Positions 18,366-23,569 of a stretch of DNA of 35,309 nt are shown here, piece by piece. The notes beneath the pieces were generated by a model. It searched no databases. It was not told where the DNA came from and saw nothing but the letters and a program-made list of their open reading frames with translations. Every line of letters starts with the position of its first letter. Positions within the stretch are counted from its first letter, which is position 1. The translations under genes and the position numbers were made by a program. This DNA comes from Verrucomicrobiaceae bacterium. Its GTDB lineage: Bacteria > Verrucomicrobiota > Verrucomicrobiia > Verrucomicrobiales > Akkermansiaceae. The DNA is taken from positions 1 through 35,309 of the forward strand of contig JAIYDT010000587.1 of the NCBI GenBank assembly GCA_027487355.1, given 5' to 3'.

Positions 18366-19505
18366 GTGCATCCCATTCATCGTCAGCGTTTCCACGACGA
18401 GATCCAGACCGCTCTGTCCCGCAACCCTGTGGTGGCGGTTCTGGGGCCGCGGCAGTGCGGGAAAACCACCATGGCCCGCGAGTTCGTGCCGGAAACCTCT
18501 GCGAACTATTTCGATCTGGAGGATCCCGCCGCCCTCGGCGTCCTGGAAAACCCGATGACCGCGCTCTCGGCACTGCGGGGGCTGGTGGTCATCGACGAGG
18601 CTCAAAGGAAGCCTGAGATCTTTCCGGTTCTCCGCGTTCTGGCGGACCGATCCGATGCGCCTGCCAAGTTTCTCATCCTCGGCAGCGCTACACCGGAACT
18701 CAGCCGGCAAGCTTCCGAATCGCTCGCAGGACGAATCGAGGTCGTGGAAATGAGCGGATTCTCCCTCTCGGAAGTCGGGGTCCCGGCTGAGCGGACACTC
18801 TGGCTGCGAGGAGGGTTTCCACGATCCTTCCTCGCGGAGACCGATGAGGCCAGCGATCGTTGGCGTCGCGAATTCATCCGCACGTTCCTGGAAAGGGACC
18901 TCGCGCTGTTGGGCTTCGGGCTGTCTCCGCAGCTGATGCATCGGTTCTGGACCATGGTTTCCCACTACCATGGGCAGATCTGGAATTCCTCGGAAGTGGC
19001 GGGCTCACTCGGCGTGAGTCCCAATACCGCCCGGAGCTACCTCGATGCCCTCACGCAGACCTTCATGATCCGCCAGCTTCAACCGTGGCACGAGAACATC
19101 GGGAAACGGCAGGTGAAGTCGCCAAAGATCTATCTTCGTGATAGCGGGCTCTTTCACCGCCTCCAGGGCATCTCCTCATGGGACGCCATGCAGACCCATC
19201 CCAAACTCGGCGCATCCTGGGAGGGCTTTGCGCTGGAAGAAACGCTCAGGGCGGCAGCCCCGGACGAAGCGTATTTCTGGGCGGTCCACAGCGGTTCGGA
19301 GCTCGATCTTCTCATGTTCCGTGGAGGCAAGCGCATCGGAGTGGAGTTCAAGCGCACCGATGCTCCCAAGTTGACCCGGTCCATGGGAATCGCCGTGAAG
19401 GATCTGGGATTGGATGAATTGGTCGTAGTCTATCCGGGCGTACGTCGCTACGAACTCTCCGAGACGGTGAGGGTAATACCCCTGGCGGAAATCGCGACGA
19501 TTTGA
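18366..19505 (+). CDS. AAA ATPase with DUF4143 domain
   Basis: A 379-residue protein of the widespread AAA_14/DUF4143 family. The Walker A is GPRQCGKTT (residues 27-35), Walker B is LVVIDEAQRKP (near 76-86) and a sensor-like ILGSATPEL follows. The C-terminal half holds the DUF4143 region: a winged-helix-like segment (SLGVSPNTARSYLDALTQTFMIRQLQPW), KIYLRDSGLFH, and a PD-(D/E)XK-like strand pattern (ELDLLMFRGGKRIGVEFKRT). The cellular role of the family is not established; the nuclease-like C-terminus suggests nucleic acid work or toxin-antitoxin-like behaviour. The start is GTG. These genes are often horizontally shared. Confidence 0.9.
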   Translation: MHPIHRQRFHDEIQTALSRNPVVAVLGPRQCGKTTMAREFVPETSANYFDLEDPAALGVLENPMTALSALRGLVVIDEAQRKPEIFPVLRVLADRSDAPAKFLILGSATPELSRQASESLAGRIEVVEMSGFSLSEVGVPAERTLWLRGGFPRSFLAETDEASDRWRREFIRTFLERDLALLGFGLSPQLMHRFWTMVSHYHGQIWNSSEVAGSLGVSPNTARSYLDALTQTFMIRQLQPWHENIGKRQVKSPKIYLRDSGLFHRLQGISSWDAMQTHPKLGASWEGFALEETLRAAAPDEAYFWAVHSGSELDLLMFRGGKRIGVEFKRTDAPKLTRSMGIAVKDLGLDELVVVYPGVRRYELSETVRVIPLAEIATI

Positions 19506-19555
19506 GAACACAGGATCGCCACCAGAGTCTGTGGAATGAAAAGTTACGGATCCTC

Positions 19556-20110
19556 ATGAGAAGAAAACTCCCAGCAGTCCTGCGATGGCGATGGTGGCTT
19601 TTTGAACTCATGCTCCTGATCCTGGGGGCCGCCCACAAATCGCTCTCGACCCTTTTTCCCTACTCCCCGCCGCACGTCGAATTCCCCGCAGAGAAGTTCG
19701 AGCCCTTTGTCAGGGCGGAGGTCCGGGAATCCACCGTCCCCGGAGCAGGGCAGGGGCTTTTCGCCGTCGATCCCGTGGAACCCGGCATCGTCATCGGCGA
19801 ATACCTCGGAGACCCGGTGGATTCATTTTTCAAGGCGCTGCGGATGCCCGATTTCAGTTATCTCGCGATGTGGGAGAAGCTCGATGGGGCCATCGACGCG
19901 ATTCATCATCCCGGAATGGCCATGCGCTACGTGAACCATCACCCGGATCCTGAAGCCTCGAACACTCTGTTCCGTGCGGAAGGTCGCCGGGTGTTTCTGT
20001 TGACCACCAAAAGAGTGGAAGCCGAAGAGGAATTCTTCGCGAACTACGCGGAAGGCTATTGGCGGCTGCTGGGGATCAGGCCTGCAGCGCCACCTTCCGC
20101 TCCTCTGTAG
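19556..20110 (+). CDS. Membrane-anchored SET-domain protein
   Basis: A 184-residue protein. An N-terminal hydrophobic helix (about residues 8-30, LRWRWWLFELMLLILGAAHKSL) is followed by a SET domain: VRESTVPGAGQGLFAVDPVEPGIVIGEYLGD, then the NH motif as RYVNHHPDPEASN, and EEEFFANYAEGYW at the end in place of the usual E(E/D)L-x-x-Y-Y. SET domains are SAM-dependent protein-lysine methyltransferases, and those features fit. A membrane helix ahead of a bacterial SET domain is unusual. The start is the ATG; a TTG 54 bp upstream, just past the ATPase stop, is possible. The target is unknown. Confidence 0.75.
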   Translation: MRRKLPAVLRWRWWLFELMLLILGAAHKSLSTLFPYSPPHVEFPAEKFEPFVRAEVRESTVPGAGQGLFAVDPVEPGIVIGEYLGDPVDSFFKALRMPDFSYLAMWEKLDGAIDAIHHPGMAMRYVNHHPDPEASNTLFRAEGRRVFLLTTKRVEAEEEFFANYAEGYWRLLGIRPAAPPSAPL

Positions 20111-20472: not shown

Positions 20473-21306
20473 ATGATTCAAAAGCCTATTCAATCCATCA
20501 TCGCAAAGATCGGGATCCTGCTCGTTGTTGGCTGCCAAACCGCCCAGGCCCAGCTTCCAGCCTTGCAGAAGGAGCCTTGGCTCGGCTTCTACGCGGTTCA
20601 CCAGCAGCGGGATTTCCAGTTCAAGATCGATACCAAGGGGCAGGGGATTCTGATCCCGCTCCAGAAGAATGGTGAGCCGATCACCCAGGTCCTGCACCTG
20701 CCTCTGGAGATCTTCATTGAAGAGAAGATGCCGGACGGAAAGCAATCGCTTCGGGCGGTCCAGGCCGTCTCCCTCACGGCAGTCGAGCCTCCGGCCGAGA
20801 AGCTCGCCAAGGCGACTTTCAAGGGGAAGACCGTCGGCGACGCGGCCTTCGAAGTGACGGTCGAAGCCCAAGGCGCGCGACTCCGCTACGGCGGACGGAT
20901 CACCGACAAGGGTTCGCTGACCGCCAATCCCATCCGGCTCATCATCCGTACAAGGTTTCCTTCCGCCTACAAGGCCGGGGATCGTGACAAGAAGGAGGTC
21001 ATCAAGCAGATCAAGGACGACGAACTGCGGGTGGCGCGACTCGATGGCAAGCGTTTCAAGCTCTCCGGCGACAAGCCCCTTGCCGAGCCGCCCAACGAGG
21101 TGGCGGACAAGGATCTCAGCTCGGTCGGCGTCAAGATCGGCGCGTGGCGGGGAATGGCTTTCGAGTTTTCAGCGACGGCCCATTCAGCCATCCGTCTCAC
21201 CACCGCCGGAAGCGACGAACTGATTCGCGGTTTCCATGTCGAGTGGTCACCCGACCCGGCGACCGATCCCAAAGGTGAGTCCCGGCTGCAGATCGAGGTG
21301 AAGTGA
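20473..21306 (+). CDS. Exported protein of unknown function
   Basis: A 277-residue protein with a signal peptide (residues 1-26; IIAKIGILLVVGCQTAQA). A Cys at residue 21 sits near the end of the hydrophobic stretch, but the surrounding VGCQ is a poor lipobox, so it is more likely secreted than a lipoprotein. The mature part is beta-rich and charged, with no catalytic motif I can identify. The pattern (a baseline formula, gradual lysine-rich strands, a final WSPDP...LQIEV strand) fits a periplasmic beta-sandwich, but this is only an impression. It precedes the division cluster by 298 bp and is probably transcribed separately. Confidence 0.75.
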   Translation: MIQKPIQSIIAKIGILLVVGCQTAQAQLPALQKEPWLGFYAVHQQRDFQFKIDTKGQGILIPLQKNGEPITQVLHLPLEIFIEEKMPDGKQSLRAVQAVSLTAVEPPAEKLAKATFKGKTVGDAAFEVTVEAQGARLRYGGRITDKGSLTANPIRLIIRTRFPSAYKAGDRDKKEVIKQIKDDELRVARLDGKRFKLSGDKPLAEPPNEVADKDLSSVGVKIGAWRGMAFEFSATAHSAIRLTTAGSDELIRGFHVEWSPDPATDPKGESRLQIEVK

Positions 21307-21327
21307 GGCCCGGTTTCCTCCTTGCAA

Positions 21328-21577
21328 AGTACACTGGCATGCCTATTTCTGTCGCCGCGTACACTCCTCGTTGAATTACCAAAATTCGGTGATTTTTCGG
21401 CCCAAAAAAGTCACCTGAGAGTCTAAAATTCACCGGCTTTTTGAACAATCTCAACCTGACCATTCGAGACGACTCGACCTTTTAATTTCCTATCTAATTG
21501 ATTTTAAGTGATTTAAAATTTTAGTTTGGGGCAGCAAGATTCTCATTGATCTTTCCGGTGTACTCTGGTGTATTTGG
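21328..21577. promoter_or_regulatory. AT-rich regulatory region of the division cluster with GTGTACT-like motifs
   Basis: The gap 21307-21604 is AT-rich, most strongly at 21478-21530. It holds agtacact (21328-21335) and gtacactc (21359-21366), and near the start ggtgtactct (21558-21567) immediately followed by ggtgtatttg (21568-21577). The last pair are direct repeats at exactly 10-bp spacing, one helix turn; the first two are in reverse orientation. MraZ autoregulates its own promoter through short GTG/TGGG-type direct repeats 10 bp apart in other bacteria, so these are candidate MraZ operators. I cannot name a convincing -10/-35 pair. Confidence 0.4.
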
Positions 21578-21604
21578 CTCAAGGTAGCCAGTAATACAGC
21601 GGAT

Positions 21605-22045
21605 TTGAGCAAGACCAGTCAGTGCCACGAAGGATATTTCTCCTACAAGATGGACTCGAAGTTTCGGGTGTCCGTCCCGCCGAACTGGCGTCCGGCCAAT
21701 GGCGAGTTTCTCCGGCTGCTGGAATCGAAGGATCACGGAATGCAGGTGATCAAGGTCCTGACCCAGGAATCGTTCGATATCCGTTTGAAGATCATCGAGG
21801 ACAGCGACCTTCCCGCAGGCAGAAAGCTCGAATTGAGTGGCAATCTTTACATGCGATGCCGTGCCGCATCCGTGAACGACCAGGGCAAGCTCCTGATCCC
21901 GAAGGAGCTGAGCGAAAAGGCCGGAATCGCCGCTGAGGATGAAGTCATCCTCGCGGGTCGCGGCGCGCATTTCGAAGTCTGGAACAAGGCCAACCACGAA
22001 CGCCTGATGAAAATCGAAGACGAGGACGAGCTCGGCATTTTCTAA
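21605..22045 (+). CDS. mraZ: Transcriptional regulator MraZ
   Basis: A 146-residue protein with two SpoVT-AbrB-like MraZ halves. The first has KMDSKFRVSVPPNWR (cf. DSKGRLSVP of E. coli), the second has SVNDQGKLLIPKELSEKAG...EVILAGRGAHFEVWN. MraZ is a nucleoid-located ring-shaped DNA-binding protein that represses the division cluster. The start is TTG, which gives the expected ~16 residues before DSK; the next ATG falls inside the first motif. It is the first gene of the dcw cluster and is 27 bp from the next in-frame ATG (22073). Confidence 0.92.
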   Translation: MSKTSQCHEGYFSYKMDSKFRVSVPPNWRPANGEFLRLLESKDHGMQVIKVLTQESFDIRLKIIEDSDLPAGRKLELSGNLYMRCRAASVNDQGKLLIPKELSEKAGIAAEDEVILAGRGAHFEVWNKANHERLMKIEDEDELGIF

Positions 22046-22072
22046 ACACTCTCCCACACCCCTACGGCTGAC

Positions 22073-23569
22073 ATGCTGTTCACCCCACCAACTCTGATGC
22101 TTGACGCGGATCACCCCATGGTGACCCCGGTCGCCGCTGCGCATGCATCAGGGTTGGGAGCATTTTCCAACATCGCCATTCGCAAACTGCTCGGGACAGC
22201 AGTGGTGGAATCGGCTCAACCGGCGGTCTGCACCGCTCCTGGCTGGTTGTCGGGGCAGGCGCCGGAAACTTTCCTGGCTGGGCGGATGACGAATCTCGGG
22301 ACAGATCGTCAGTCGCCATTCAACAAGGTTGTCCGCGCCGCTTCTGGCTGGTTGTTGGCGCGGGCAACCCGAAATTTCCCCAACAAGCGCGAGCAGGACC
22401 TCGGGACAGGCCTGTTCGATGCGCTTCAAGCTCCGGTCGCATGCACCGCTCCTGGCTGGTTGTCGGGGCTGCGGCCGGAATCTTTCCTGGCTGGGCGGGT
22501 GACGAATCTCGGGACAGATCGTCAGTCGCCATTCAATCGGGTTGTCCGCGCCGCTTCTGGCTGGTTGTTGGCGCGGACATCCCACTCTTTCAAGACGGAG
22601 GCCGCTCCGGTCCATCTCGCCTCGGACGACGCGTCGGGCGAGCTTCCGCATTACCACCTGTCGGTCTTTCCGGCCGAGGTCGCGAAATGGATGGCGGCAG
22701 GTCCGGGCAAGCTGATCATCGACGGCACCCTCGGCGGTGGTGGCCACAGTGAAGCCTTTTTGAATGCCGGAGCCGATGTGCTCGGAATCGACCGCGATCC
22801 CGAAGCGCTGGCCCATGCGTCCCAGCGACTCGCGGGCCACGGTTCGCGCTTCCGCACCTGGGAAGGCAATTTCGCAGATCTCGAAGAGACCCCAGAGGTC
22901 CAAGGGGGGAAACAGGCCGATGGCCTGCTTTTGGACCTCGGGGTGTCTTCGCGACAACTCGATGCGGCCGAGCGCGGCTTTTCCTTCATGAGGAATGGTC
23001 CGCTCGACATGCGCATGGGACCTTCCAGCCCGCGCACGGCGGCGGAGGTGGTCAACGGCTGGTCCGAGTCCGAGCTTTCCAAGCTGATGTTCGAATACGG
23101 AGAGGAGCCCAAGGCCCGCCGCATCGCCAAGGCCATCGTCGAGCGCCGCGCCCAGCGCCCGTTCGACACCACACTTGATCTCGCCGACTGCATCGAAAAG
23201 GCGGTCGGTCGTCATGGTCGCACCCACCCAGCCACCCGCGCATTCCAAGCGATCCGGATGGCGGTGAACGAGGAACTTGAATCCCTTTCCAAAGCGCTCG
23301 AAGCCTCCGCCCGAGTGCTGAAACCCGGAGGCCGCCTGTTGGTCATCACCTTCCACAGCCTGGAGGACCGGATGGTGAAACGGTTCCTGAAATACCGCTC
23401 CACTGCCTGGCTGGACGAGCCGGGCTGGCCCGATCCAAAGCCCAATCCCGATCTCCAGTTCCGCCTGCTGGTGCGGAAAGCCGTGGTTCCCACCGCATCT
23501 GAAACCTCCCTGAACCCCCGGGCCCGCAGCGCGAAACTGCGGGTCGCCGAGCTTCTAGCCTCACCATGA
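22073..23569 (+). CDS. rsmH: 16S rRNA m4C1402 methyltransferase RsmH (MraW), with repeat-derived N-terminal extension
   Basis: The predicted protein is 498 residues. RsmH homology begins only near residue 193 (PHYHLSVFPAEVAKW) and runs 306 residues, the normal family length. It carries DGTLGGGGHS (SAM), GIDRDPEAL, DLGVSSRQLD, RGFSFMRNGPLDMRM, and GGRLLVITFHSLEDRMVKRFLK. The first ~190 residues have no RsmH counterpart and contain two near-identical 45-residue copies (53-97 and 124-168) coded by a duplicated DNA element. The true start could be ATG 22073, GTG 22499 or TTG 22565/22568; no other ATG lies between residue 72 and the conserved domain, so all starts after residue 72 would be GTG or TTG inside or just after the second repeat. 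Function is secure; the start is not. ftsL overlaps its stop (ATGA). Confidence 0.9.
   Translation: MLFTPPTLMLDADHPMVTPVAAAHASGLGAFSNIAIRKLLGTAVVESAQPAVCTAPGWLSGQAPETFLAGRMTNLGTDRQSPFNKVVRAASGWLLARATRNFPNKREQDLGTGLFDALQAPVACTAPGWLSGLRPESFLAGRVTNLGTDRQSPFNRVVRAASGWLLARTSHSFKTEAAPVHLASDDASGELPHYHLSVFPAEVAKWMAAGPGKLIIDGTLGGGGHSEAFLNAGADVLGIDRDPEALAHASQRLAGHGSRFRTWEGNFADLEETPEVQGGKQADGLLLDLGVSSRQLDAAERGFSFMRNGPLDMRMGPSSPRTAAEVVNGWSESELSKLMFEYGEEPKARRIAKAIVERRAQRPFDTTLDLADCIEKAVGRHGRTHPATRAFQAIRMAVNEELESLSKALEASARVLKPGGRLLVITFHSLEDRMVKRFLKYRSTAWLDEPGWPDPKPNPDLQFRLLVRKAVVPTASETSLNPRARSAKLRVAELLASP
22229..22363. repeat. REP-like repeat copy 1 within mraZ-rsmH
   Basis: A ~135-bp unit repeated 213 bp downstream with no indels. 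It contains a long palindrome at 22281-22317 (ggcg...tgacga arm, complementary tcgtca...cgcc arm, loop cgggac; two mismatched positions and one bulge). CTGGCTGG-type boxes lie on both sides. Offset 213 is divisible by three, so both copies stay in the same reading frame. Confidence 0.85.
22442..22576. repeat. REP-like repeat copy 2 within mraZ-rsmH
   Basis: Second copy of the unit, with the palindrome at 22494-22530. Differences from copy 1 are a few substitutions clustered near 22470-22485, 22499 and 22537. Between the copies (22364-22441) lies partly related, more diverged sequence. Confidence 0.85.

Follow-up and report, generated by a model that had tools for sequence, protein, structure and literature searches.

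The window, that is, the whole stretch of 35,309 nt that was analysed, contains an rsmH reading frame whose catalytic domain lies well downstream of the start codon, and the question raised by this locus is whether the repeated, palindromic DNA between mraZ and that domain serves as protein, as nucleic acid or as both. The mraZ stop codon ends at 22045, 27 nt 5' of the rsmH ATG at 22073. From this ATG the frame remains open without a stop to 23569, which bears out the first-pass annotation in placing the repeat region in frame with RsmH, and the Pfam MraW match begins at residue 194, position 22652. Residues 194-493 match TIGR00006 (RsmH/MraW) with 306.6 bits against a curated cut-off of 154.3. 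Two further features lie upstream: a gene for a SET-domain protein at window 19502-20110, upstream of the dcw cluster, and CCGGTGTACTCTGGTGTATTTGG at window 21557-21580, upstream of mraZ, which consists of direct repeats with ~10-nt spacing, possibly MraZ boxes.

The near-identical direct repeat with imperfect palindromes described in the first-pass annotation is present (22220-22370 and 22433-22583, 151 nt, 91% identical, spacing 213 nt). The reading as two copies was correct about the repeat itself but not about its period, which is ~105 nt rather than 213, each long copy being two sub-units. Between ATG 22073 and the RsmH domain (22652) there are four ~105-nt units and one start-proximal hairpin (H0), with CTCGGGACAG recurring at 22190, 22295, 22400 and 22508 (spacing 105/105/108). 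Each unit consists of two hairpins, A, with the invariant loop CTCGGGACAG, and B, with the near-invariant loop CTYCTGGCTGGTTGT, and a C motif, TGGCTGGGCGG, is often found 5' of A. Against dinucleotide shuffles, the fold of 22046-22640 is more stable by 5.2 SD. The features are as follows, with R1 a model of the B hairpin and R2 a model of H0.

21605-22045, + strand: mraZ, an ORF matching PF02381, with the NCBIfam MraZ models below cut-off; the 5' bound is that of the ORF and may not be the start codon.
22073-23569, + strand: rsmH ORF, 498 aa, with a 193-residue N-terminal extension and the catalytic domain from residue 194 (22652).
22088-22158, + strand: H0, long start-proximal hairpin, arms 22088-22100 and 22145-22157, R2 match at E 1.6e-11, with covariation.
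22176-22213, + strand: hairpin A1, loop CTCGGGACAG at 22190-22199.
22222-22264, + strand: hairpin B1, loop CTCCTGGCTGGTTGT at 22236-22250, R1 match at E 2.4e-9.
22275-22285, + strand: C motif TGGCTGGGCGG, overlapping the 5' end of hairpin A2.
22281-22318, + strand: hairpin A2, loop CTCGGGACAG at 22295-22304.
22327-22369, + strand: hairpin B2, loop at 22341-22355, 14 pairs including G.U, R1 match at E 3.0e-8.
22386-22423, + strand: hairpin A3, loop CTCGGGACAG at 22400-22409, with a weaker stem.
22435-22477, + strand: hairpin B3, loop at 22449-22463, R1 match at E 7.1e-8.
22488-22498, + strand: second C motif TGGCTGGGCGG.
22494-22531, + strand: hairpin A4, loop CTCGGGACAG at 22508-22517.
22540-22582, + strand: hairpin B4, loop at 22554-22568, R1 match at E 1.2e-8.

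Comparison of the reading frames indicates that the array is translated from ATG 22073. Between the end of mraZ and the RsmH domain, the RsmH frame of the relatives in genera g1 and g7 holds 6 stops in 4776 codons, four of which come from one incomplete genome (G069), against 73 and 68 in the other two forward frames over the same interval; after the first ATG there are no stops in 3,922 codons from 21 genomes. Later starts had been put forward at GTG 22499, which lies directly 3' of the second C motif, and at TTG 22565/22568, which are inside the B4 loop. These are not supported: the start MLFTPP and H0 are common to several genera, and their conservation favours ATG 22073, the frame of which is the only one free of stops. 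The H0 model also matches genera g8 and g16; weak H0 matches in other families (G227, G264 and G293) were taken as chance, that of G227, the one whose place relative to rsmH was compared, lying on another contig. It had also been proposed that the region is either a translated extension or a structured leader. Both descriptions apply together, the frame being open from ATG 22073 and the leader being under strong selection as nucleic acid, and it is the choice between them that falls away.

The structured element itself is well supported. The A loop is invariant at 10/10 positions in 45 aligned sequences from the genus and a sister genus and the B loop at 12/15 positions in 46 sequences, although this invariance is partly built in, as both sets were gathered by loop matching. 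Evidence independent of that sampling is their recurrence: almost every unit in each species carries them, with flanking sequences that differ. In g7 a variant of the B loop occurs. The stems, by contrast with the fixed loops, covary. Two-sided changes are found in 12/13 pairs of the B stem (covariation 0.489 vs 0.200 when shuffled and 0.06-0.13 with slid partners), in 12/12 pairs of the A stem in one of its two sequence classes (0.542 vs 0.221 shuffled and 0.15-0.26 slid) and in 9/13 pairs of the H0 stem (0.417 vs 0.233). Permuting the arms among elements gives z of 14 for B and 15 for A but, given that the sequences share ancestry, such shuffle counts overstate significance and the slid-partner controls were therefore relied on as well. 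Shuffles that permute codons and keep the protein, run on 24 genomes, place the folding of the extension at z -1.0 to -7.7, below -3 in 22 of the 24, and that of the enzyme core at +0.8 to -5.3, mostly above -3.

It is conceivable that the hairpins need no partner, and that structure early in the ORF slows or lowers RsmH translation, or protects or processes the mraZ-rsmH junction. The strong folding energy would fit such a role, as would the use of different hairpins at the same place in other genera. When folded, the mraZ-rsmH spacers of g11 and g13 each give two hairpins, with loops AAGGGACG and GACTTGGAGGGA respectively, and that of g12 gives tandem ~147-nt units lying partly outside the RsmH frame; the hairpins of all three genera are unrelated to A and B yet occupy the same spacer. 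The g12 units (L025, L028, L029, L152) carry ACTGGATAACTGGAACACTGGAACA, 3' of which there is usually an ATG together with a large hairpin whose loop is often TGCCTTGCC. Nevertheless, the loops are the most conserved part of the A and B hairpins, even if their counts are inflated by the sampling noted above, and since bare stability does not require a conserved loop, a role for structure alone is unlikely.

The genome-wide search for the unit that had been recommended gave matches only in rsmH, four copies at no more than one mismatch, in the window's own genome (89% complete). R1 matches 59 of the 61 genomes of the genus with essentially one cluster per genome; in a few, matches fall on two contigs, possibly owing to assembly breaks at repeats. 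The clusters are always in the same orientation, and their position was read as the rsmH leader in some 25 genomes and is inferred for the rest. R1 also matches a sister genus. In the family sample, it matches 22 genomes of g1 and 11 of g7, and there are no matches in the 14 other genera. No comparable array was found in 24 leaders from other families of the order. In family f4 (L193, L195, L202) the N-terminal extension of RsmH is conserved and non-repetitive, e.g. FQVGVWPWFGTSEDAMDDMMPLGRGTL. The suggestion that a dispersed repeat had been exapted is not supported, and a dispersed repeat or mobile element was rejected on the single locus and the lack of dispersed copies in the genomes searched. 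An apparent link of the array with a second RsmH paralog was dropped because that paralog is widespread in the order; it stands alone (e.g. L174, G000:C198:5652-6461) and is 35-41% identical to the dcw copy.

A further possibility is that the acting form of the hairpins is single-stranded DNA or a cruciform, in recombination, in replication or as a domesticated mobile-element site, with tandem copies spread by recombination. Copy number varies widely and neighbouring copies are near-identical, which would suit this explanation. The G.U vs A.C strand test of the hairpins does not separate RNA from single-stranded DNA, and in the genomes used for the codon-permuting shuffles the sense fold is not consistently more stable than the antisense fold. 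In g3 (L110, L111, G028, G047) RsmH is encoded by an open frame of ~524 codons, and fused to its N-terminal side is a stretch that looks like a Y1 (IS200-like) transposase domain, HVHV motif included; the Pfam match, at E 0.0032, falls short of the family cut-off. This may be counted on the same side. Against this stand the confinement of the array to essentially one cluster per genome, in one orientation and in the rsmH leader wherever this was read, and the tie between its position and the rsmH start; moreover, two differences from close relatives, at 22224 and 22339, give U.G in the sense RNA when checked by eye. Taken together, a role as DNA appears improbable.

The remaining explanation is that the unit acts as protein, the repeat-bearing N-terminal domain targeting the enzyme or binding rRNA, with nucleotide conservation arising from codon choice and gene conversion. 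The frame is indeed uninterrupted in every well-assembled relative, certain residues (GW, LGT and R among them) turn up repeatedly, and RsmH proteins extended N-terminally by 60-100 aa are frequent in the order. The substitution pattern points the other way. When G000 is compared with G061, dS is 0.048, dN 0.025 and dN/dS 0.52 in the extension, as against dS 0.231, dN 0.012 and dN/dS 0.05 in the core, so that dS in the extension is ~5 times below that of the domain and dN is above it. In a codon alignment of 19 sequences, third bases are at least 90% identical in 7/14 conserved fourfold codons of the extension and in 0/61 of the core (p 2e-6). Some A copies in G070, G060, G068 and G006 are shifted by one base, which turns the peptide LGTARRF into SGQHAASS and leaves the hairpin intact. 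The covarying stems and the tolerance of wide copy-number variation likewise tell against a protein role, as does an AlphaFold2 prediction from 19 sequences in which residues 1-194 have pLDDT ~26 and no predicted structure, the catalytic domain being mostly at 75-95. There is consequently little likelihood that the peptide is the functional product. The protein is mostly not what is selected in the extension, and selection acts at the level of the nucleic acid. A unit found nowhere else had been coupled in the first-pass annotation with purifying selection on the protein; the uniqueness holds, and the selection is on nucleotides instead.

The combination of fixed loops, freely covarying stems and several identical copies favours a cis-acting mRNA element that is bound by something. 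It is suggested, with moderate confidence, that the region is a translated cis-acting array of mRNA hairpins with identical loops, through which a putative trans-acting factor controls rsmH and the dcw operon; that the acting form is RNA rather than DNA, that the role is regulatory and that such a factor exists are all inferred. H0, followed by the tandem alternating A and B hairpins, would form the cis-acting element within the 5' rsmH coding sequence, and the identical loops would most likely be the recognition surface. The candidate factor, an RNA-binding protein or, with lower probability, an sRNA, may occupy several copies simultaneously on the mraZ-rsmH mRNA and thereby adjust how well rsmH and the dcw genes 3' of it are translated or how stable their message is. 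An open frame may be retained to let ribosomes that reinitiate 27 nt after mraZ traverse the array, the encoded disordered peptide then being a tolerated by-product. Counting against an RNA element is the position of H0 and the array 3' of the start codon, as both would be melted by ribosomes in the course of translation.

Two further ideas about the loops were rejected. Hairpins bound by CsrA are protein-bound mRNA leaders, and GGA is present in the A loop CTCGGGACAG and absent from the B loop; CsrA was set aside as the factor, no match to PF02599 being found in the window's own genome (89% complete). Mimicry of rRNA by the A and B loops was also rejected, as the 16S loci have no more than 7-10-mers in common with them, which either do not exceed chance or fall outside the gene, and nothing beyond chance lies within 16S. 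One g11 loop has an 11-mer in common with 16S, unremarkable given that several comparisons were made. A broader and more tentative proposal is that tandem identical-loop RNA hairpins within an ORF form a dual-function class, a putative docking platform for an RNA-binding dcw regulator in which the type of hairpin is swapped between genera.

A structured element without an Rfam match heads the dcw cluster in nearly all sampled genomes of the genus: in 21300-23000 no Rfam family is matched at E <= 1, RF01746 included, and among open-licence papers none was found on this rsmH leader element. A repetitive protein extension that looks poorly conserved can be the shadow of an element at the nucleic-acid level, which is a warning not to label extensions of this kind as protein domains. 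The array also offers a concrete handle for seeking a factor that regulates rRNA methylation and cell division in Verrucomicrobia.

The closest comparison by gene is the mraW RNA motif (RF01746) of Actinomycetales, a conserved RNA structure in the leader of mraW, that is, rsmH (PMC2864571, PMC3890552). The present array is likewise in the leader of that gene, between mraZ and the RsmH domain, but it occurs in another phylum and takes the form of tandem units that lie 3' of the rsmH start codon and are translated. Rickettsia palindromic elements, which are MITE-like and dispersed in many unrelated genes (PMC10969869), resemble it in being palindromic units of ~100-150 bp in frame within a protein gene; unlike these and REP or MITE elements, the unit described here occurs at a single locus in the genomes searched, and its loops and stems are conserved. 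Autogenous or protein-bound mRNA leaders, such as that of the r-protein S15 (PMC4137082), share with it, as do CsrA-bound hairpins, fixed-loop hairpins near the start of a translation-related gene, whereas here no rRNA mimicry by the A and B loops and no CsrA gene was found, and the ORF itself contains several identical hairpins. Finally, MraZ boxes are found upstream of the dcw cluster in E. coli and Mollicutes, in the latter as direct repeats in the mraZ promoter (PMC8475190). As with these boxes, the array presents repeated putative recognition sites in the mraZ-mraW region; in contrast to them, its sites are covarying hairpins and lie downstream of mraZ.
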